Below are positions 7,058 through 58,569 of a DNA stretch of 64,000 nt, one piece after another. The stretch is from the NCBI RefSeq assembly GCF_000023125.1, contig NC_013037.1:2542001-2606000 (forward strand), in the 5' to 3' direction. The notes under the pieces are model-generated. The model was not told the DNA's origin, searched no databases, and worked only from the letters and a program-made list of their open reading frames with translations. The stretch comes from Dyadobacter fermentans DSM 18053. Lineage in GTDB: Bacteria; Bacteroidota; Bacteroidia; Cytophagales; Spirosomataceae. The position numbers and the translations under genes are program-made. The first letter of the stretch is position 1. Every line of letters begins with the position of its first letter.

Positions 7058-8689
7058 TTAGATTTTCGGCTCGATCCAAACCAGCGCAAGCACCAATACC
7101 AACCACGCAAGCCAGCCCCAGCCAGGTAGTTTTGCTACCGAACGTTCATTAGTGGCTACTGTTTTACCATTTTTGGGTTGAATGGAGAGTGTAAATTGCT
7201 GCATGAGCGCAGCATTCCGCAGCGGCGAGTGGGACGCTACAAAAAGCTCAGTCCCCAGCGAATCGTGGAGACTGAGCCATCCGCTTTCCGTTGGCTGGAA
7301 TGTGGCCGCTGCCGAGCGGTTGTTCAATGCGGAAGTGGTTGTAAAAACCGTGTCGGCGCCAATGCGGACGAAGCGGGGCATGGGTTGAAAGTTGTTCAAA
7401 TGGATGTTAGCCGGTAGGTTTTTAAAAGCCGGAGCGTCCCATTCAAGCACGGATGCAGGCGCAGGGCGCACGTACGCCATAATTTCGCTCCAAATCTTCC
7501 CGTAGGCAATGCTATCGCCCGAAAGCTGCAAGGGAAACGTCTCGTTCAGCAGGCTGGCGGCGATCGTTCCCGTTGTTTTTTCAACAACCAAAGGGTAATG
7601 CGGCGCTTTCACCTGGAAACTTTGCGGGGTAAAACGGAAAGGCTGCGCCGTGAGAATGCCCGACACCGGTACCGCTTCTTCATTGGAAATTTTAGTAGCC
7701 TCAAAGCCTGTCCCCTGGGCCTGGTTAATCACCCTCAGTTCAGCCGGTGGGTCGCTCAATTGGACAAAAAGCACACTTTTACCGTCTTTAACGGCCTTGC
7801 GGACCACTGCATGGGCTGCATTAGAGGGTGTGGTGACGATCAGATCGGGACTGCCCGTATTATTGATTTTAAGCAAACTACGTATGTCCTTGGATAATCT
7901 GGCGTCATACAGCGCCGCATGGCCTTGCTTACCCAGCCAGGTGGCAAGGTTTCGCGTCTCGAAATCGGGGTTATCGACCAGGAAACGGACGGTGAGCGGC
8001 TTGTCCGGCTGCGTGAAAAAACGCACGGTGTCGATCGTCCGTCCATCCAGGTGCAGCGTAGTGGTCGTGCGCCCTTCACCGAATGCCGCGAACGAGAGCG
8101 TAAAACGGCTATTTCCCGGATTCAGCAGCACGCTGTCCAGAGTTTGCCCCGCATATTTAATTTGTAAAACCTGCTTCTCAGCTGATTGAATAGCGCCTGT
8201 AATGCGCTGCAAGCCACCTCTTTTTACCACGCCTTTCCAATGCAGGTCCGACGCCTCACCGGATTTGAAATATGGTAGCCATCGCACCGCCGCCATGCCG
8301 CGCGACTGCCGGATACCGGCAAAAATTCCCGGCGCAAAATCCTGCCCGGCGATCACCAGCGTGTCCAAATCCGCCTGTTCGATTTCATCAGCGGAAACCA
8401 CCCGTGCAGCCGGAAGGCTATCGCGCAACCGCCCTGACACTTCCTGGGGCACATTGCCGGCTATCAGCAGTCCGACGGCGGATTTACCCGCCACCGGCCA
8501 ATAGGGGTCCAGCACCCAGGCCACCACACTTGCCCATAGCAACGCATTCAACCCCAGCCGCACTCCCAACCGACCCGAGTGCCGATGCCGCGTGTACAGT
8601 ACCACGCATTGCACGGTCAGCAAGGCCAGCAGGGCCAGGGCAATCGCCAGGTTCAGAGGTACATTCCAGTTGAAATCAGTTTGGATCAT
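7058..8689 (-). CDS. Membrane-anchored protein closing the MoxR/DUF58/BatA cluster
   Basis: A 543-residue protein with two N-terminal transmembrane helices (about 14-35 and 44-62), a large extracytoplasmic region, and a C-terminal helix (GWGWLAWLVLVLALVWIEP). This is the architecture of BatA/BatB-neighbour proteins, in which membrane helices bracket a beta-rich or Rossmann-like domain. I cannot name a Pfam family with certainty. It begins 25 bases downstream of the DUF4175-like gene and is probably translated from the same mRNA as the MoxR, DUF58 and BatA-like genes. Its job is likely as a structural partner of that envelope complex. No catalytic motif was recognised. Confidence 0.75.
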   Translation of the reverse strand: MIQTDFNWNVPLNLAIALALLALLTVQCVVLYTRHRHSGRLGVRLGLNALLWASVVAWVLDPYWPVAGKSAVGLLIAGNVPQEVSGRLRDSLPAARVVSADEIEQADLDTLVIAGQDFAPGIFAGIRQSRGMAAVRWLPYFKSGEASDLHWKGVVKRGGLQRITGAIQSAEKQVLQIKYAGQTLDSVLLNPGNSRFTLSFAAFGEGRTTTTLHLDGRTIDTVRFFTQPDKPLTVRFLVDNPDFETRNLATWLGKQGHAALYDARLSKDIRSLLKINNTGSPDLIVTTPSNAAHAVVRKAVKDGKSVLFVQLSDPPAELRVINQAQGTGFEATKISNEEAVPVSGILTAQPFRFTPQSFQVKAPHYPLVVEKTTGTIAASLLNETFPLQLSGDSIAYGKIWSEIMAYVRPAPASVLEWDAPAFKNLPANIHLNNFQPMPRFVRIGADTVFTTTSALNNRSAAATFQPTESGWLSLHDSLGTELFVASHSPLRNAALMQQFTLSIQPKNGKTVATNERSVAKLPGWGWLAWLVLVLALVWIEPKI

Positions 8690-8714
8690 TCGGGTTTAGT
8701 TCGCTGTGAGTCCG

Positions 8715-10928
8715 TTACCGCAGTGCCTTCCGGAACGCCGCTTCGAGTTCCTTTTCCGCCTTCCATGACGGCCGGCTTTGCAGTATGGCGTTCGTTCGGT
8801 GATGGAGGTCGCGCTTTAAAATGTTTGTTTCGGTGACTGTTAATGTGCGGCCCGTTGCCAGCTTTTGCAATGCGGCTATCATCGGCCAGTTCTGCAAACC
8901 GCCGTTCAAAGGCCCGCTTTCGATAATCCGCTGTGCCAGCTCCGAGCTGAAAGCGGCCAGTTTTGTCCGTTCGCTTTTTGGCAAATAGCCCTTTTCAAGA
9001 TAACCCAGTAGCGTCGACGCCAGTCGCGCTGTTTGTTGGTCCTTAAACGCAATTTCATACTCCCATTTGGCAGCAAGGTCTTTTAGCTCGCCCGTGAGCC
9101 GCTTCTCCTTTTCCTTGATCGGCGGTGGGTCGTAGCCGCTTTTTTTCACGTAAGTCCGTGCCTTTTGCTGGGCTGTTTTGAGGTATTCCAACGCCTTGTG
9201 CTCAAACGGCAACGCCTTTTCGGGCGCATAAGTGCGCAAATGCAGCTCCGACTGCCACATTTGCTCCAAAGCCATTTTCAAAAGGCTTCGCGTAGATTGT
9301 TCGTAAAATGTATTCAACTCGCCATCGTCGTGCGAATGGGTGTATTGTTCCATCAATGCGGCCAGCGGGTCCTTTTCACCTGCGGGCGGTTCCGCGTGTC
9401 CGTGCGCGTGGTCGTGCTGATGCTCGTGTGCGGGTTCGTCCGCGTGAGAGCCGGCTCCCTCGCCGTGGCCGTCGGAATGGTGCGTGAAAGCGTCGATGAT
9501 ATCGCCGTTTTCAGCCCCCGCCGGGCTTTCCGCGCCTCCAATGCTGGTTTCAAATTCTTCGCCCAGGTACTGCCCGTAACGCAGCCGCAGCACCTTCTGA
9601 TCGAAGCCGATCTCATTGGAAGTTGCATTAAAATCGCGTGTACTGAGCTTTTTCCGCCTGGCTATCAGCTTTTCCGTATCGATAATGATCTGCCGCTGGC
9701 TGCGGAAATATTCCGGCATGATGTTCACAGCCATGGTCGCGAGCTCGGCTTCCTCTATTTTCGCAGTGTCCTTATAAACAATGAAATACGTATCCGATTT
9801 GGTAAAATTCGCTTCCGGCTGGCGATTATCGACCGCCGCCCAATAGTAATAAAGCTCATCGCCCGGCGCGAAGTTAAGCGCATTCAGGTCCATCGTTTTG
9901 TGAAGGTTAGCCTCTTTGAAATCGGCCGGGCTGAGCGGCATCTTCACCTCTCTGAACTTGACATTCTCGCCCGACCCGCGCGCCACCGTGGCAATGATAA
10001 ATGCCTGCTTTACGCGAAAATCATCCGATATTCTGGCAGAAACGCGGATGTTTTTAGGATCTTTTAAAAAATGATAATGGTATAGCTCCTTCGAAGCAGG
10101 CTCTATGCGCGGCGCGAGGTCCGGTAGCGCCTCCATTTTGTAAAACTCGGATTGGTACACGAGCGAATCCTTCCAATAGCCTTTAATCGAATACAGCCCC
10201 GAGCCGGTGATGCGATCCTGGTGCGTAAATACGCCGTTCGCTTCCCGCAAAGTCACTTCCTCTCCGCGGCTGCCGGCAATGCGGACCGTCAGGTTTTCAT
10301 GCCTGTCGAACCGCACCGACCATGCTATTTTCGAACCGGTAATGGCACTGATATTCAGGTCGCCCGACTCCCGAGCGGGCAACCCGGTGTAGCCCGGCGC
10401 CACCACGCTCACCCGCGCGGAGCTCAACTTTGGAGCCGAAACAATGTGCTTCTCCGGCTTGCCCAGCTGCAACACAGCCGCGTTATCCGCCTTGACCGGC
10501 CAGTTTCTCAGCTTCATCGATCCATAAGCGACGCCCATCGCCAGCAGCACAGCTCCCAGGTAAATCCAGGTGCCGCGGTACACTTCGCGAACGGGAAAAG
10601 CAACGCGACCGGCGGCAATGCGTTCGAGCTGCATTTGTTCCACCACATTCAGATCGGGCTTATCGAGCAGGTCCAAGCTGTATTCCAGACCCGGATTGTG
10701 CCTGTGAATCAATGAAATGGCTATATTTTTTTTATCACTAAAAGCTTTTGTAGCAAACACACCGATCATCCCGCCAACAATGCCGATGAACAATTCCAGC
10801 CAGGGGTGGCCCGCCAGAAACGCGCCGGCCACCAAATGGAACGCGACGCTCAGCAATAAGCTCTTGAACACAGCCACCCATTGAGCCTGCATCTTTACCG
10901 AATGGACCAATTTTCTCAGATCAGCCAT
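8715..10928 (-). CDS. DUF4175-like membrane protein with histidine-rich linker
   Basis: A 737-residue protein. Helices at about 18-62 and 120-138 anchor it. Beta-sandwich-like segments (about 165-385) and a long helical region (about 390-737) lie outside. This matches the large DUF4175-type protein that often follows BatA-like genes. Residues 483-512 hold an unusual run rich in His, Asp, Glu and Gly (for example HEHQHDHAHGHA), a likely metal-binding or flexible tether. The start codon overlaps the end of the upstream BatA-like gene by 8 bases, so translation is probably coupled. No enzyme motif is visible. A scaffold role in the cluster is inferred. Confidence 0.75.
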   Translation of the reverse strand: MADLRKLVHSVKMQAQWVAVFKSLLLSVAFHLVAGAFLAGHPWLELFIGIVGGMIGVFATKAFSDKKNIAISLIHRHNPGLEYSLDLLDKPDLNVVEQMQLERIAAGRVAFPVREVYRGTWIYLGAVLLAMGVAYGSMKLRNWPVKADNAAVLQLGKPEKHIVSAPKLSSARVSVVAPGYTGLPARESGDLNISAITGSKIAWSVRFDRHENLTVRIAGSRGEEVTLREANGVFTHQDRITGSGLYSIKGYWKDSLVYQSEFYKMEALPDLAPRIEPASKELYHYHFLKDPKNIRVSARISDDFRVKQAFIIATVARGSGENVKFREVKMPLSPADFKEANLHKTMDLNALNFAPGDELYYYWAAVDNRQPEANFTKSDTYFIVYKDTAKIEEAELATMAVNIMPEYFRSQRQIIIDTEKLIARRKKLSTRDFNATSNEIGFDQKVLRLRYGQYLGEEFETSIGGAESPAGAENGDIIDAFTHHSDGHGEGAGSHADEPAHEHQHDHAHGHAEPPAGEKDPLAALMEQYTHSHDDGELNTFYEQSTRSLLKMALEQMWQSELHLRTYAPEKALPFEHKALEYLKTAQQKARTYVKKSGYDPPPIKEKEKRLTGELKDLAAKWEYEIAFKDQQTARLASTLLGYLEKGYLPKSERTKLAAFSSELAQRIIESGPLNGGLQNWPMIAALQKLATGRTLTVTETNILKRDLHHRTNAILQSRPSWKAEKELEAAFRKALR

Positions 10929-13929: not shown

Positions 13930-13933
13930 TTTT

Positions 13934-14046
13934 GAATGATTGAATGAGTGAATTAGTGAATAAGGGGAGGCAAGGGAGGATGGAAGAAAGGGAGGAAAGA
14001 AAGTGGGACACCCTTCCTCCATCGTCCCTTTCTTCCCTTTCCTCCT
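13934..14046. repeat. Short octamer array plus polypurine/polypyrimidine inverted repeat
   Basis: Four octamer units (GAATGATT, GAATGAGT and two degenerate copies) occupy 13934-13965, ending 5 bases upstream of the preferred moxR start. A purine-rich arm (about 13967-14009) and its pyrimidine-rich imperfect complement (about 14010-14046) follow and could fold as a long hairpin. The block fills the entire space between the DUF4159 stop codon and moxR. It lacks the 20-mer seen in the larger cassettes. Confidence 0.8.
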
Positions 14047-14666: not shown

Positions 14667-16004
14667 CTAAACTGCGTCGGACAACGATGAGAACGTAAAT
14701 TCCCGGATTTTCATCGGCGGGATCAGGTAATTACTGTTGGTTTCGGTGCTCACCACGCGTTCGGGCTTGCCGAGCGTTTCGAGGTTGTTGAGCATGATGA
14801 CCGGGCTTTCATTAAAACGGAAGTTCTTGATCGGATGTTTGATCACCCCGTTTTCAATGTAAAAAGTACCGTCGCGCGTGAGGCCCGTGAGCAGGAGCGT
14901 TTGCGGGTCCACTTCACGAATATACCAAAGTTTGGTAACCAAGATGCCGCGCTGCGTGGATTTGATCAACTCTTCCATGCTCGCTGTGCCGCCGGCCATG
15001 ATGATGTTCGTCGGGAATGGCACCGGTTTGACATTGTTCTTTTGTGCCCAATAGCGCGAACAAACGAGGTTTTTGACCACCCCTTTCTCGATCCAGCTCA
15101 TCTTATTGGCAGCCTGCCCGTCACCAGCCCAGGGCGACGACGGCAATTCCGGGTGCGTAGGGTCGGAGTAAATGTTAACGCGCTCGTCGACGATCTTCTC
15201 GTTCAACTTGCTTTTGCCGCCTGCTTTGCTCAGGAACGAGCGGCCTTCGTCGGCGCTTCTCGCATCGAAATTGAAGAATATGTTTTCCAGCAGCACTGCG
15301 GCGGCCGTCGGTTCGAGGATTACCGTGTATTTACCGGGTTCCAATGCCTTCGCATCCACCGATCCTTTTGATTTCTGAATGGCGATTTTCGTAGCAGCGG
15401 CCGTATCCAGCTTGGTCACGTCGCTATACCCTTTCGCCACATAGCCGGAGCCCTTGCCGTCAGGCGTGCGCACAGTGAGCGAAAAATTCACGCTCGTGCT
15501 CGGATAATAGGCAAACAGCCCTTTCGAATTCATCATAGCCGAATAGCCCTTCTGGTTTTCGAGAAATCCGGCGGCGGTCATGTTCTGCGAACGGGTGAGG
15601 TCGAGGCTTTTGGCAACGGCGTCAGCGCGGTAAGCGGGGTTGACACCCGCAGTGGAATCGAAGAAACCGTTCGATTTCAGATAGGTCTGCGGTTCCAGCA
15701 AGCCGACGTACTCGGGATTTTCCGGCGCCAGCCGCGCCAACTCCTCGGCCCTTCTGACCACTTTTTCAATGGATTCGTCGCTGAATTCGTCGATCGTCGC
15801 GACGCCCACTTTTTTCCCGAATGCGGATTGAACCTGCAAATTCTGGTTGATCAGCGAGCCGCTCGTCGACACTTCGTTGCGGGCATAGCGCAGGTTCCCG
15901 CGCTCCTCGCCCAGTATATTCACCTCGCATTCATCTGCTTTGGAATAGCTCAGCACTTTCTGACAAAGCGCCTTTGCTTCTGCTTCTGTTAGTATGATGG
16001 CCAT
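14667..16004 (-). CDS. tldE: TldE/PmbA-type subunit, copy 2
   Basis: A 445-residue member of the PmbA/TldD family without the HExxxH zinc motif, as expected for the non-catalytic TldE subunit. Recognisable family blocks are RNEVSTSGSLINQNLQVQ, YTVILEPTAAAVLLENIFF and the C-terminal RDGTFYIENGVIKHPIKNFR. In other bacteria TldE pairs with TldD to form a heterodimer that degrades unfolded peptides or trims modified peptides such as microcin B17. No signal peptide is visible. The partner is presumably the tldD at 16415-18052, read just upstream. It is clearly paralogous to the gene at 18189-19508. Confidence 0.9.
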   Translation of the reverse strand: MAIILTEAEAKALCQKVLSYSKADECEVNILGEERGNLRYARNEVSTSGSLINQNLQVQSAFGKKVGVATIDEFSDESIEKVVRRAEELARLAPENPEYVGLLEPQTYLKSNGFFDSTAGVNPAYRADAVAKSLDLTRSQNMTAAGFLENQKGYSAMMNSKGLFAYYPSTSVNFSLTVRTPDGKGSGYVAKGYSDVTKLDTAAATKIAIQKSKGSVDAKALEPGKYTVILEPTAAAVLLENIFFNFDARSADEGRSFLSKAGGKSKLNEKIVDERVNIYSDPTHPELPSSPWAGDGQAANKMSWIEKGVVKNLVCSRYWAQKNNVKPVPFPTNIIMAGGTASMEELIKSTQRGILVTKLWYIREVDPQTLLLTGLTRDGTFYIENGVIKHPIKNFRFNESPVIMLNNLETLGKPERVVSTETNSNYLIPPMKIREFTFSSLSDAV

Positions 16005-16015
16005 TTTTTAATTTT

Positions 16016-16416
16016 GAATGATTGAATGATTGAATGAGTGAATGAGTGAATGAGTGAATGAGTGACCGGGTCGCCGGAGCGATGAGCCGCCGTGGAACGG
16101 GGAATGACCGAATCAGTGAATGAGTGAATTTTGAATGAGCAGCCGTGGAACGGGGAGTGAGTGAATAAAAGTCAAGTATCGTCAGGTGAGCTGAGGCGTT
16201 GACTTTTTAATCCTGACAATTTCATGACTACTCCTGACTCAATGACAATTTATTCAATCATTCAATCATTCGGTCATTCAGTCATTCACACATTCGCTCA
16301 TTCACTCATTCACTCATTCACTCATTCCCCGTTCCACGGCGGCTCATTCCCCGTTCCACGGCGGCTCATTCCCCGTTCCACGGCGGCTCATCGCTCCGGC
16401 GACCCGGTCACTCATT
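16016..16416. repeat. Composite repeat cassette with perfect 51-bp inverted repeat
   Basis: Six octamers (GAATGATT x2, GAATGAGT x4) run from 16016 to 16063, then a segment containing GAGCCGCCGTGGAACGGGGA. The central core is about 100 bases. Complementary octamers run from about 16253, followed by three tandem 22-bp copies of the complementary 20-mer unit (about 16324-16390). Positions 16057-16107 are an exact reverse complement of 16366-16416. The block fills the whole tldD-tldE gap: it starts 12 bases before the tldE start codon and ends inside the tldD stop codon. Confidence 0.9.
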
Positions 16417-18052
16417 ATATCTTCCTCGCCGTATTGATCACATTTACCCCATTGAACCGCGCCGTCGAACTGCCGTGCGAAACGGCGCTGGATTGCATGG
16501 GTTGGCCTTTGCCGTCGAAGAATGAACCGCCCAGGCGGTAGTCGCGCTCGTCGCATACCTGTACGCATGAGTTCCAGAATTCCTGGGTGTTGGACTGGTA
16601 GGCCACGTCTTTCAGCATGCCGGCGATTTTACCATCTTTGATTTCGTAGTACAGCTGGCCCCCGAACTGGAAGTTGTAGCGCTGCTGGTCGATCGAGAAG
16701 GAGCCGTCGCCGATGATGTAAATGCCCTTTTTGACATCCTTGATCATCTCTTCTACCGACAACGGCGTTTTGCCTGCCGCCAGCGATACATTCGGCATGC
16801 GCTGGAACTGGACGGAGCTCCAACTGTCGGCATAGCAACAGCCGTGCGATTCTTTGGCACCAATAATGTGCGCCTGGTCACGGATGGCCTGATAGTTGAC
16901 CAGCACGCCGTCCTTCACCAGGTCCCACTGTTTGGTATCCACCCCTTCATCGTCCCAGCCCACGGCCCCGAGCGAGCCTACTTGCTTTTTGTCGGCAATG
17001 AGGTTCACTTGCTTGCTGCCGTACTGGAAGTTTTTCGATTGCCATTTGTCAAGTGTAGCGAAGGATGTTCCGGCAAAATTGGCCTCATATCCCAGCACGC
17101 GGTCGAGTTCGAGCGGGTGACCTACGGATTCGTGGATCGTCAGCCACAAATGCGACGGATCGAGGACCAGGTCGTACTTGCCCGCTTCCACCGATTTCGC
17201 CGTCAGCTTTTCTTTCGCTTGCTTTGCGGCGGCCGTGGCGTCTTCGAGCATGTCGTAACCCATGTTGTAGCGGGTCGTGACGCCGGTAATCTTGTCTGCC
17301 GGGTTTGCTTGCAAATAATCATAGCCCATACCCATCGGCGCGCTGAGCGAGCGGCGCGTTTCGAACTTGCCGGTTTTGGGATCAATGGCGGTGACATTGA
17401 AAAGCGGCCAGATCCGGTGAATGTCCTGGTCGATGTAAGAGCCGTCCGTGGAAGCGAAATATTTTTGCTCATTCACCTGGAAAAGTATTGAATTCACGTA
17501 GTTGGCCCCATTTTTCATCGCTGCGTCGTTCACCGAAAGCAGCAGGTCCACCTTTTCCTTGATGGGAATTTCAAATGCATTCTTTTTAATGGGCGCCTTC
17601 CAGCTTACTTCGCCGAAACCCTTCTGAGGAGCGAGCTGCACAGGCTCCTTCACCAGCTTCGCATTGGCTTTGGCAATGGCAACGGCCTCTTCCGCTGCTT
17701 TTGCCAGCTGGGCTTCATTCTTGGCGTCGACTACCGCAGCAAAGCCCCAGCAGCCATTGGCGATCACCCGCACACCCACGCCGTAAGATTCGGTATTGAC
17801 AATATTTTCGACCTTATCCTCCCGCGTAGTCACATATTGATTGAGGTAGCGGCCGATGCGCACATCGGCATAGGAGGCGCCTTTGGACTTGGCCGTGTTG
17901 AGGGCGGCATCGGCGAGCCGTTTCTTAACGGCCACGTCGTCACCCGCGACCAGGAATGCCTCCGGTGCCACGGGACGGCCCGTTGCGAAGCCGGGCAACA
18001 TGAACGCTCCCGTTCCCAGCCCGGCCAGATGAATGAAATCTCGTCGTTTCAA
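16415..18052 (-). CDS. tldD: TldD metalloprotease with Tat leader, copy 2
   Basis: A 545-residue TldD. The zinc protease motif HESVGH is at residues 307-312 in LWLTIHESVGHPLELDR, followed by the conserved GYEANFAGTSF. The N-terminus MKRRDFIHLAGLGTGAFML has the twin arginines and hydrophobic stretch of a Tat signal, unlike the cytosolic E. coli enzyme, so it probably works outside the cytoplasm as a folded metalloenzyme. The cysteine pair in SHGCCYADSW is shared with the other copy. It is followed by a repeat cassette and its likely partner tldE. Overall similarity to the gene at 19839-21482 shows a tandem duplication. Confidence 0.93.
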   Translation of the reverse strand: MKRRDFIHLAGLGTGAFMLPGFATGRPVAPEAFLVAGDDVAVKKRLADAALNTAKSKGASYADVRIGRYLNQYVTTREDKVENIVNTESYGVGVRVIANGCWGFAAVVDAKNEAQLAKAAEEAVAIAKANAKLVKEPVQLAPQKGFGEVSWKAPIKKNAFEIPIKEKVDLLLSVNDAAMKNGANYVNSILFQVNEQKYFASTDGSYIDQDIHRIWPLFNVTAIDPKTGKFETRRSLSAPMGMGYDYLQANPADKITGVTTRYNMGYDMLEDATAAAKQAKEKLTAKSVEAGKYDLVLDPSHLWLTIHESVGHPLELDRVLGYEANFAGTSFATLDKWQSKNFQYGSKQVNLIADKKQVGSLGAVGWDDEGVDTKQWDLVKDGVLVNYQAIRDQAHIIGAKESHGCCYADSWSSVQFQRMPNVSLAAGKTPLSVEEMIKDVKKGIYIIGDGSFSIDQQRYNFQFGGQLYYEIKDGKIAGMLKDVAYQSNTQEFWNSCVQVCDERDYRLGGSFFDGKGQPMQSSAVSHGSSTARFNGVNVINTARKI

Positions 18053-19508: not shown

Positions 19509-19534
19509 TTTTGCGTTAGTCTTTTTTTAATTTT

Positions 19535-19838
19535 GAATGATTGAATGATTGAATGATTGAATTATGAATGAGTGAATGAGCCGCCGTGGAACGGGGAGTG
19601 AGCGAATGATTGAATCGTCAGGAAGTCAGGAGATCAGGAAGTCAGGTATTGTTAGGTCAGGTGTTGATTTTTCATACTGACAATTCATAACTATCTCTGA
19701 ATCAATAGCAATTTATTCAATCATTCAATCATTCAGTCATTCAATCATTCCCCCGTTCCACGGCAGCTCATTCCCCGTTCCACGGCGGCTCATTCACTCA
19801 TTCACTCATTCACTCATTCCCCGTTCCACGGCGGCTCG
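19535..19838. repeat. Composite repeat cassette between tldD and tldE copy 1
   Basis: Left arm: GAATGATT units from 19535, then GAGCCGCCGTGGAACGGGGA around 19577-19600. Right arm: complementary octamers from about 19714, with three copies of the complementary 20-mer interleaved with CACTCATT octamers up to 19838, directly abutting the tldD stop codon. The centre (about 19620-19713) is recognisably related to the centre of the cassette at 16016-16416 (shared GTCAGGTATTG-like, TGACAATT and CAATTTATTCAATCATTC segments), so the two are diverged copies. Confidence 0.9.
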
Positions 19839-29076: not shown

Positions 29077-30234
29077 ATGCCGATCTATCAAAAACTAGGA
29101 ACCATCCCGCCCAAGCGCCACACGCAGTTCCGAAAACCGGACGGCGGGCTTTACTATGAAGAACTCTTTGGAACGATCGGTTTCGAAGGCATGTCTTCCC
29201 TCCTCTATCACACCTGGCGGCCCACGCAGGTGAAATCGCTTGGCGAGCCCATTGACATTTCCCCGCGCGTGGCTGTGACCAACAATATGATGATGCGAAA
29301 GCTGATCGGCTTCGACATGAAACCGGCGGCGGATTATCTCGACAGCCGAACGCCGTTACTCATGAACCGCGATCTTATTCTCGGCCTGGCCGCCCCCAGC
29401 GGTGCTCCGATGGATTATTTTTACAAAAATGCCGACGCCGACGAGCTCCTGTTCGTACACCGCGGCTCGGGCAGGCTGCGCACGCCGTTCGGGCAGGTGC
29501 CATTCACATATGGAGATTATGTACTGATTCCCAGGGGTACAATTTACCAGATCGACTTCGATGGGCCTGATAACCGCCTGCTTTACCTCGAATCACATTC
29601 GCCCATTTACACGCCCAAACGCTACCGCAACCATTTCGGTCAGCTCACCGAGCATTCGCCGTATTGCGAGCGTGATTATGTGCTGCCCCGAGACCTCGAA
29701 ACACACGACGAGCACGGGGATTTTGTCGTTAAAATCAAGAAACAGAGCCATTTTCACCCGGTCACCTACGAAACGCACCCGTTTGATGTCATCGGCTGGG
29801 ACGGATACAATTATCCGTGGGCGTTTTCGATCCATAATTTCGAACCGATTACCGGCCGCATTCACCAGCCGCCGCCCGTGCACCAGACGTTCCAGACCGA
29901 CGCATTTGTAGTATGCTCGTTTTGCCCGCGGCTTTACGATTACCACCCGCTGGCCATTCCTGCACCCTACAACCACAGCAATATCGACTCCGACGAGGTC
30001 CTGTACTACGTCGACGGCGACTTCATGAGCCGCAACGACATCGCGCAGGGGCACATTACGCTCCACCCGGGCGGCATCCCGCACGGTCCGCACCCAGGCG
30101 CCTACGAACGGAGCATCGGCAAAAAAGAGACCCAAGAACTCGCCGTCATGGTCGACACTTTCCGCCCACTCATGCTCACCGAACAGGCAATGGCGATTGA
30201 CGACGGGCGGTACTTTATGAGTTGGGGGGAATGA
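29077..30234 (+). CDS. hmgA: Homogentisate 1,2-dioxygenase
   Basis: A 385-residue member of the HmgA family, shorter than the proteobacterial enzymes but typical for Bacteroidota. Start chosen at ATG 29077 (MPIYQKLGTIPPKRHTQFR). The C-terminal cupin carries the iron site, with histidines and a glutamate in DEVLYYVDGDF and HPGGIPHGPHPGAYE. It opens the homogentisate ring to maleylacetoacetate, the third step of tyrosine breakdown after HppD. The stop codon TGA is itself part of a repeat unit that starts the cassette at 30229. It leads a four-gene operon that lacks a recognisable maleylacetoacetate isomerase. Confidence 0.93.
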   Translation: MPIYQKLGTIPPKRHTQFRKPDGGLYYEELFGTIGFEGMSSLLYHTWRPTQVKSLGEPIDISPRVAVTNNMMMRKLIGFDMKPAADYLDSRTPLLMNRDLILGLAAPSGAPMDYFYKNADADELLFVHRGSGRLRTPFGQVPFTYGDYVLIPRGTIYQIDFDGPDNRLLYLESHSPIYTPKRYRNHFGQLTEHSPYCERDYVLPRDLETHDEHGDFVVKIKKQSHFHPVTYETHPFDVIGWDGYNYPWAFSIHNFEPITGRIHQPPPVHQTFQTDAFVVCSFCPRLYDYHPLAIPAPYNHSNIDSDEVLYYVDGDFMSRNDIAQGHITLHPGGIPHGPHPGAYERSIGKKETQELAVMVDTFRPLMLTEQAMAIDDGRYFMSWGE

Positions 30235-30458
30235 GTGAACTTTGAATGAGTGAACTTTGAATGAGTGAATGAGTGAATCTTAAATTTTGAATGATTGAAT
30301 GATTGAATGATTGAATAATTTTTTGTTTGATCTGGTCATGAAATTTTTATTCAATCATTCACTCATTCACTCATTCACACATTCAATCATTCAATCATTC
30401 CTCGTTCCACGGCGGATCATTCACCCATTCACTCATTCACTCATTCACCCATTCACCC
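30229..30458. repeat. Composite octamer repeat cassette between hmgA and hppD
   Basis: The left arm of GAATGAGT and GAATGATT octamers runs 30229-30316, starting inside the hmgA stop codon. A 35-base AT-rich centre follows, then complementary octamers (ATTCAATC, ATTCACTC, ATTCACCC) from about 30350 to 30458. A degenerate 20-mer (TCGTTCCACGGCGGATCATT at about 30402-30421) is present. The last unit runs directly into the hppD ATG. The arms are complementary and could form a long hairpin between the two cistrons. Confidence 0.9.
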
Positions 30459-55619: not shown

Positions 55620-55695
55620 ATTCAATCATTCAATCATTCAATCATTCCCCATTCCACGGCGGCTCATTCACTCATTCACTCATTCACTCATTCAA
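55620..55695. repeat. Octamer array upstream of the isomerase gene
   Basis: Octamers ATTCAATC (three), a variant 20-mer unit (CCATTCCACGGCGGCTCATT), and ATTCACTC octamers fill the gap between the DeoR stop codon (55699) and the isomerase leader. Only one arm is present here, without its complement. A short separate heptamer run (AAGCTAT twice) lies at 55592-55609. Confidence 0.88.
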
Positions 55696-58279: not shown

Positions 58280-58447
58280 AGCAAAGCCCAGCCGCAGAGC
58301 GGCAAGCGTACCACAGCAAAGCCCAGACGCAGAGCGGCAAGCGTACAGCAGCAAAACCCAGCCCGCAGAGCGGCAAGCGTACAGTAGCAAAGCCCAGCCG
58401 CAGAGCGGCAAGCGTACAGCAGCAAAGCCCAGCCCGCAGAGCGGCAA
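58280..58447. repeat. Five tandem 35-36 bp repeats with internal palindromes
   Basis: Units start at 58280, 58315, 58350, 58386 and 58421, the last one truncated. Each begins AGCAAAGCCCAG and contains GCCGCAGAGCGGC or a one-base variant, a small perfect hairpin. The units are directly adjacent with no spacers, so this is not a CRISPR. The block lies 27 bases after the higA stop. Confidence 0.9.
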
Positions 58448-58482
58448 CCTGTTTATAGAAACCAAATGTCAACACAAACGTC

Positions 58483-58534
58483 AAGGCTCCGTAGGTGCCG
58501 CCTTTGCTTGAACAGGCGGCACCTACGGAGCCTT
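58483..58534. repeat. Perfect 21-bp inverted repeat (strong hairpin)
   Basis: Positions 58483-58503 are the exact reverse complement of 58514-58534, with a 10-base loop. The inner arm contains CCGTAGGTGCCGCCT. No T-run follows. It could be a REP-type element or serve as an mRNA stabiliser at the end of the GH127 transcript or the higBA transcript. Confidence 0.85.
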
Positions 58535-58569
58535 AACGTTTAGCATCTTCATCAATGCTACAAACAGGA

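Follow-up and report, generated by a model that had tools for sequence, protein, structure and literature searches.

A perfect inverted repeat between tldD-like and tldE-like genes of Dyadobacter fermentans and the intergenic fold-back arrays to which it belongs

Analysis of a 64-kb stretch of the Dyadobacter fermentans DSM 18053 genome (NC_013037.1, positions 2,542,001 to 2,606,000; hereafter the window) led to a gap of 410 nt, mostly repeat, between a tldD-like gene (16415-18052, minus strand) and a tldE/PmbA-like gene (14667-16004, minus strand). Coordinates of the focal cassette, of its sister cassettes and of genes are positions in the window unless marked as genome. All four tld-like proteins of the window contain the PmbA/TldD Pfam domains. 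The NCBIfam TldD and PmbA models match both proteins flanking the cassette far below their cut-offs, and for this reason the genes are named here only as tldD-like and tldE(PmbA)-like. The gap bears a perfect inverted repeat (16057-16107 and 16366-16416) with arms of 51 nt that are 100% complementary and lie 258 nt apart, while among 100 dinucleotide-shuffled versions of 16016-16416 the longest such repeat reached 11 at most (mean 8.4). A preliminary description of this locus had reported the 51-bp repeat and a repeat region beginning 12 bases from a start codon and ending inside a stop codon. It is borne out in all three respects, the first octamer lying 12 bases from the downstream start codon and the outer arm ending inside the upstream stop codon. 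It had also taken the whole gap for a cassette of octamers and 20-mers. The octamer arrays were recovered by TRF (16015-16065 and 16252-16327), but the presumed 20-mer is a 22-nt tandem unit (16321-16391, 3.2 copies), and the gap, although mostly repeat, contains about 88 nt in its middle (16166-16253) that form a separate module, neither octamer nor 22-mer. Both arms combine octamers (GAATGANT) with modules a and b, each of 22 nt, arranged alike, and between the arms lie further octamers, further copies of module a and the 88-nt core. The features of the cassette are the following:

16002..16004, minus strand: start codon of the downstream tldE/PmbA-like gene (14667-16004), CAT on the plus strand
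16016..16065, minus strand: outer octamer array, GAATGANT on the plus strand and ANTCATTC in the mRNA (TRF)
16057..16107, no strand: arm 1 of the perfect inverted repeat, 51 nt (self-complementarity)
16062..16083, plus strand: module b, 22 nt, GTGACCGGGTCGCCGGAGCGAT (sequence; dispersal search)
16084..16105, plus strand: module a, 22 nt, GAGCCGCCGTGGAACGGGGAAT (sequence; its 13-nt core was counted genome-wide)
16137..16158, plus strand: variant copy of module a (sequence)
16166..16253, no strand: core of about 88 nt, a GTCATnnn/GTCAGG-type module (comparison with relatives; genome search)
16252..16327, plus strand: inner (right) octamer array, ATTCANTC (TRF)
16321..16391, minus strand: module a (22 nt) three times in tandem, in the orientation opposite to 16084-16105 (TRF)
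16366..16416, no strand: arm 2 of the perfect inverted repeat, 51 nt (self-complementarity)
16390..16411, minus strand: inverted copy of module b (sequence)
16415..16417, minus strand: stop codon of the upstream tldD-like gene (16415-18052), TTA on the plus strand, its last two bases within the inverted repeat

An ORF at 16224-16541 is the translation of the pyrimidine strand of the array (HSFGHSVIHTFAHSLIHSF...) and is probably spurious if annotated as a gene. ORFs of the 'HSFTHSLIHSF' type in such genomes are probably readings of repeats, which calls for caution in gene calling. Palindromes and tandem arrays are prone to assembly error, and the focal palindrome might be attributed to it, with no result obtained here pointing that way. 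However, according to its genome report, D. fermentans NS114 was finished by Sanger sequencing with 8-kb and fosmid libraries (PMC3035232), and similar cassettes are present in many other assemblies; an assembly artefact is thus extremely improbable.

The repeat is not confined to this place, as a genome-wide search of the kind proposed in the preliminary description revealed. The octamer doublet TTCAMTCATTCAMTC occurs 238 times in the D. fermentans genome (123 forward and 115 reverse) against 0 for the reversed control, the 13-nt core of module a occurs 30 times and the 20-nt pattern of module b gives 19 matches with up to two mismatches. Among Spirosomataceae, the octamer doublet was found in 90 of 150 genomes and 24 of 36 genera, the reversed control giving a single match in five genomes; phylum-wide it was present in 32 of 395 genomes, many of them with one match. 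The highest counts outside the family belong to G560 (34/38) and G346 (32/16), while octamer doublets are absent from the other sampled congeners of these two genomes (G330; G252 and G564), a contrast that suggests horizontal spread or independent amplification. A 23-nt pattern, consisting of module a and the octamer edge, matched 40 stretches, all of them in Dyadobacter, a count in which records very near the window may be missing. The focal core has one further match in its own genome (E-value = 0.01, 85%, query 1-68), and a 75% relative of it lies in the neighbouring tld gap of the window. No earlier description of the octamer family in Dyadobacter and its relatives stood among the top-ranked results of searches in the open-licence PMC literature, although one may still be in print. 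Members in the window and the distant relative of the core are located as follows:

19533..19838, no strand: sister cassette of the second tld pair, with octamers, module a and a related core
30229..30458, no strand: family member between the hmgA-like and the 4-hydroxyphenylpyruvate dioxygenase genes
55620..55694, plus strand: single-arm family member adjoining a gene edge
13933..13961, minus strand: short single octamer arm, followed by a purine-rich stretch and a complementary pyrimidine stretch (sequence)
genome 380291-380357: relative of the core (85%) inside another octamer cassette (genome search)

The 4-hydroxyphenylpyruvate dioxygenase scored above its NCBIfam cut-off and the hmgA-like gene below. 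Other repeats were also encountered. The window carries a tandem array of a 35-nt unit at 58280-58447 (4.7 copies, 91% matches), after which a 28-nt inverted repeat with one mismatch is located at 58476-58541. Another octamer fold-back family (CGGCTNTCGGC) is established at comparable intergenic places, with the pyrimidine arm first at L076 17443-17566 and L069 9791-9874, and is also present in the second tld gap of G180 and G168.

Position and polarity were studied in an own-genome sample of 40 stretches of 20 kb (26 chosen for bearing repeats and 14 evenly spaced) together with the window. For polarity, this sample was pooled with named loci, tld loci and loci of other genera, deduplicated, and clusters of two or more hits were considered; most of these loci were picked for carrying repeats, the window, the tld loci and the 14 stretches at even spacing being the exceptions. 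Among the 94 two-strand clusters, 93 read GAATGA-core-TCATTC ('-+'), none reads '+-' and one is a double '-+-' (L014), while 51 clusters have hits on one strand only. The polarity of single arms in D. fermentans towards the nearest gene edge agrees in 13 of 15 cases, with one tie and one exception. The gene calls behind these figures come from a simple purpose-made caller, which overlooked a probable gene (ORF 8469-9038) to the left of the array in L056; this would explain the lone exception. All 41 own-genome clusters fall outside called genes, and those with two arms, 26 in number, begin at a median of 11 and 16 nt from their flanking genes. Own-genome clusters occupy 31 co-directional, 7 convergent and 2 divergent gaps, the divergent ones being under-represented compared with all gaps of at least 60 nt (Fisher p = 0.004). 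We take the focal cassette as a single member of a class of intergenic fold-back elements distributed over Spirosomataceae, dispersed, of fixed inward polarity and placed, in our sample, in non-coding and mostly non-divergent gaps.

A TldE match was obtained in 44 of 48 Dyadobacter genomes and the tldD-tldE junction could be read in all 44, the gap measuring 6-15 nt in 24 of them and 67-410 nt in the other 20. The filled gaps, assigned to classes by reading the sequences with the aid of pattern matching, comprise 14 of the octamer type, five of an unrelated purine-rich type (GGAGGAAAGG) and one of a decamer type with degenerate octamer ends. The 12 genomes nearest to the window have six octamer, five purine-rich and one decamer-type gap, and these types are interleaved on a tree in which some nodes are weakly supported. 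By contrast, the gap that follows and separates the two tld operons is 136-137 nt long in all 12. Reading of the second tld gap in 41 genomes gave octamer, purine, decamer, CGGCT-octamer and other fold-backs, and also plain sequence. G076 and G032 share about 97% identity in tldD-tldE coding DNA, yet the purine arrays of their second tld gap are not alike, and its outer edge carries a decamer-type repeat in G032 but none in G076, which we read as fast turnover. The hmgA-hppD junction, between the hmgA-like and the 4-hydroxyphenylpyruvate dioxygenase genes, was found in 18 of 48 Dyadobacter genomes and was classified by eye: six two-arm octamer cassettes, one single octamer arm, four decamer fold-backs, one REP array with one octamer arm, and six gaps of 40-76 nt lacking a recognised repeat. 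It behaves like the tldD-tldE junction, with repeat families exchanged. At these orthologous junctions gain, loss and replacement are rapid, and one apparent inversion of a core was observed.

This inversion is found in G167, where the focal core is established at the orthologous place on the minus strand (81% over 83 nt). In G177 it has the same direction as in the window (76% over 84 nt), and partial copies in plus orientation are present in G169 and G151. The G167 arrangement could alternatively have resulted from an independent insertion. A comparison of 204 loci placed the junction of modules b and a nowhere but in the two focal arms. The preliminary description had argued that so long a perfect hairpin is rarely stable unless it has a role or gene conversion keeps it. 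Conversion between the arms is plausible, given this private b/a junction and the core inverted in one relative; the need for a role is not supported, the cassette being one among dozens and the gap being near-empty in the 24 genomes mentioned above. A candidate explanation of palindrome stability through loss of the palindrome-cutting nuclease was discarded, as the genome has an SbcD match over the cut-off. The test for arm copying gave a clear outcome only in G149, a member of another genus, in which arms match their own partner better than those of other cassettes (25.7 vs. 22.4, subfamily-stratified, 0 of 10000) and units private to a locus are mirrored between the arms. In D. fermentans, by contrast, 626 of 5000 permutations equal or exceed the observed arm-to-arm match within loci, and in the tld set 4857 of 5000 do, so that neither stands out from background. 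Private 10-nt words common to both arms amounted to 7 vs. 1.9 expected in D. fermentans, from two cassettes, and to 0 vs. 1.9 expected in the tld set. Because the G149 test is clear and those in D. fermentans and the tld set fail, arm copying likely occurs in places, without being demonstrated as general in Dyadobacter. Template switching at inverted repeats has arm homogenisation and spacer inversion as its stated products (PMC8604942; see also PMC8794818), and possible signs of both are seen at the focal locus, although these reports deal, in what they describe, with yeast coding genes and RNA genes and not with arrays at bacterial operon junctions (PMC8604942, PMC8794818).

At the RNA level, the focal cassette is predicted to fold with -215.5 kcal/mol (z = -15.9), in a stem that would begin directly after the tldD stop codon and leave 54 nt of the ACUCAUUC-type array unpaired ahead of the tldE start. 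The near relatives fold at -0.28 kcal/mol per nt or lower in 9 of 12 cases, compared with a median of -0.226 kcal/mol per nt in 197 co-directional gaps without octamers. Weak folders at the tldD-tldE junction are G150, G156, G178 and G151, whose values (-0.13 to -0.24 kcal/mol per nt) are at about the level of ordinary gaps. Several further ideas were rejected or gained no support. The unpaired outer gap is not smaller in folded cassettes (median 40 nt in 24) than in the 197 co-directional gaps (36 nt), which lends no support to a hairpin that would hold the stop and start codons near each other. No intrinsic terminator with a GC-rich stem and a U tract was found (0.4 expected), the stem being followed by the ACUCAUUC array instead, and Rfam covariance models gave 0 matches up to an E-value of 1 in 15900-16500. 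Nor was a general rule supported by which every hairpin would begin with its purine arm, since eight non-octamer inverted repeats of at least 24 nt were purine-first in three cases, pyrimidine-first in four and even in one.

Known repeat families offer partial parallels. Like REP/BIME elements, the cassettes are multi-copy extragenic palindromes close to gene ends, in mosaic arrays, with species-specific turnover and hairpins in mRNA, as far as REP/BIME and RAYT are portrayed in PMC2817692 and PMC12306157; REPs, however, are given as 20-40 nt long (PMC3733652) in contrast to the long octamer-array arms of Dyadobacter. A Y1_Tnp search of the genome gave one match, in a 3.3-kb locus with a REP array of 213-nt spacing and no octamers. 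This locus (L111, genome 5819611-5819952 and flank) has a Y1/RAYT-like transposase gene beside about five repeats that contain AATGCC-N-GGCATGTAAC palindromes. Membership in a RAYT-mobilised REP family was rejected, as the sole Y1 match is flanked by another REP array rather than by octamers; unlike in REP/RAYT systems, other arrays of the AATGCC-N-GGCATGTAAC type found beside that gene form cores between octamer arms. All three wide octamer pairs that we read (L054, L056 and L059) enclose RAYT-type REP arrays, so palindrome families nest, and ORFs between the arms of L054 and L056 reach at most 112 aa. These arrays, at L054 8940-9700, L056 9038-9595 and L059 9452-9965, are enclosed by octamer arms together with 22-nt modules. 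Five of seven REP clusters have octamers within 400 nt in the own-genome sample, which was itself chosen for octamers. The centres of palindromes may be preferred sites of REP insertion. BrickBuilt, described as a minisatellite within a MITE in Porphyromonas gingivalis, is likewise intergenic, multi-copy and from Bacteroidota, with tandem units and inverted-repeat ends (PMC4596501). It is reported there as a direct array of 23-nt units with small inverted-repeat ends, with 19 copies in a single strain and a presence in further strains of the species (PMC4596501), whereas the Dyadobacter arrays are mutually inverted, are built of 8- and 22-nt units and belong to an octamer family spread over 24 of 36 sampled genera. 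The TAACTGA repeats of Beggiatoaceae, Cyanobacteria and some Bacteroidetes share short intergenic tandem units by gene edges, stops in all frames of one strand, a patchy distribution and arrays overlapping stop codons (PMC4679880). That account describes heptamers that are almost always in direct orientation and in most cases placed right before start codons (PMC4679880), whereas the octamer cassettes are inverted pairs that reach from a stop to the next gene edge.

The reading that we lean towards, with moderate confidence, is that the cassette is a REP/MITE-like intergenic fold-back array that grows by slippage and template switching and is tolerated at gene junctions. A classical MITE, a non-autonomous element bounded by terminal inverted repeats rich in octamers and moved by a transposase acting in trans, would agree with the fixed inward polarity of these terminal inverted repeats (93 '-+', 0 '+-' and 1 '-+-'), with the related core that octamer arms enclose at 380 kb, unlinked to the focal locus, and with presence or absence differing between species. 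A signal of target-site duplication is nevertheless missing, the mean shared flank word being 3.9 vs. 4.0 under shuffled pairing in 26 cassettes of the own genome and 4.1 vs. 4.3 in 22 cassettes of G149, in a test of limited sensitivity because the cassette ends are ill-defined. Moreover, the search, which covered the Y1 family, led to one transposase beside a different REP array, array lengths vary widely, and the filled hmgA-hppD gaps, read by eye, lack the unique sequence of the short G178 gap, which is why simple insertion fails there. Taken together we regard a classical MITE as unlikely. An invertible switch for phase variation, with a promoter-bearing core flipped by recombination between the arms, would account for the long identical arms and for the orientation of the core in G167; yet the inversion was seen once, between species, and one promoter-like site was found where 0.7 were expected (by a sigma-70 consensus, possibly ill-suited to promoters of Bacteroidota), making this explanation very unlikely.

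A selected intercistronic RNA element, in which the hairpin is kept irrespective of its sequence and sets the ratio of the upstream to the downstream protein, is a further alternative. It could act by protecting mRNA 3' ends, by partial termination or by bringing stop and start codons together. In its favour, all 12 near relatives carry repeats of one or another unrelated family at the tldD-tldE junction, nine of them fold more strongly per nt than the control median, the predicted focal stem starts at the stop codon, and repeat families are swapped at the hmgA-hppD junction as well. On the other hand, 24 of 44 relatives manage with a tldD-tldE gap of just 6-15 nt, in three of the 12 (G178, G151 and G156) the fold per nt is no stronger than that of ordinary gaps, and 6 of 18 hmgA-hppD junctions have no recognised repeat. 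The outer gap of similar size to that of ordinary co-directional gaps (40 vs. 36 nt) and the absence of a terminator-like site at the focal cassette also speak against it, and the same cassettes occupy convergent gaps. We therefore consider such an element unlikely, although the retention of some repeat at the tldD-tldE junction in all 12 near relatives could reflect selection and is a counterpoint to mere tolerance. A related proposal, offered tentatively, is that the fold-back itself and not its sequence is conserved at operon junctions: unrelated octamer, purine-rich, decamer and REP families would interchange and nest concentrically with layout and position kept, either since palindromes attract and convert palindromes or through selection for any hairpin.

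Returning to the tolerated fold-back array, the following course can be outlined. The space from a stop codon to the next gene edge is taken up by a palindrome whose arms consist of short tandem units. Its arrays would lengthen and shorten via replication slippage, and fold-back template switching by the DNA polymerase would copy one arm onto the other and flip the core. New copies would be seeded by a separate process, possibly with a transposase in trans. Selection would purge copies from genes and promoters, and they would therefore persist where a hairpin in the mRNA is least harmful. The predicted tldD-tldE transcript would have a very stable hairpin just after the tldD stop and then an unpaired ACUCAUUC leader before tldE. 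Its effect would likely be modest and REP-like, with upstream mRNA ends protected and translation of tldE less coupled to that of tldD.

The focal structure is real and striking, but not unique. Most interesting to us is that unrelated repeat families, mostly fold-backs, are exchanged at one and the same operon junction: at the tldD-tldE gap, relatives carry almost nothing, an octamer repeat or an unrelated repeat of similar fold-back layout. The 44 genomes thus present a natural series at one orthologous junction (near-empty, small, large, replaced and inverted), in which one can read directly how intergenic hairpins of bacteria arise, copy their arms and disappear, and the system allows a test of whether cells select for hairpins between cistrons or simply tolerate them.
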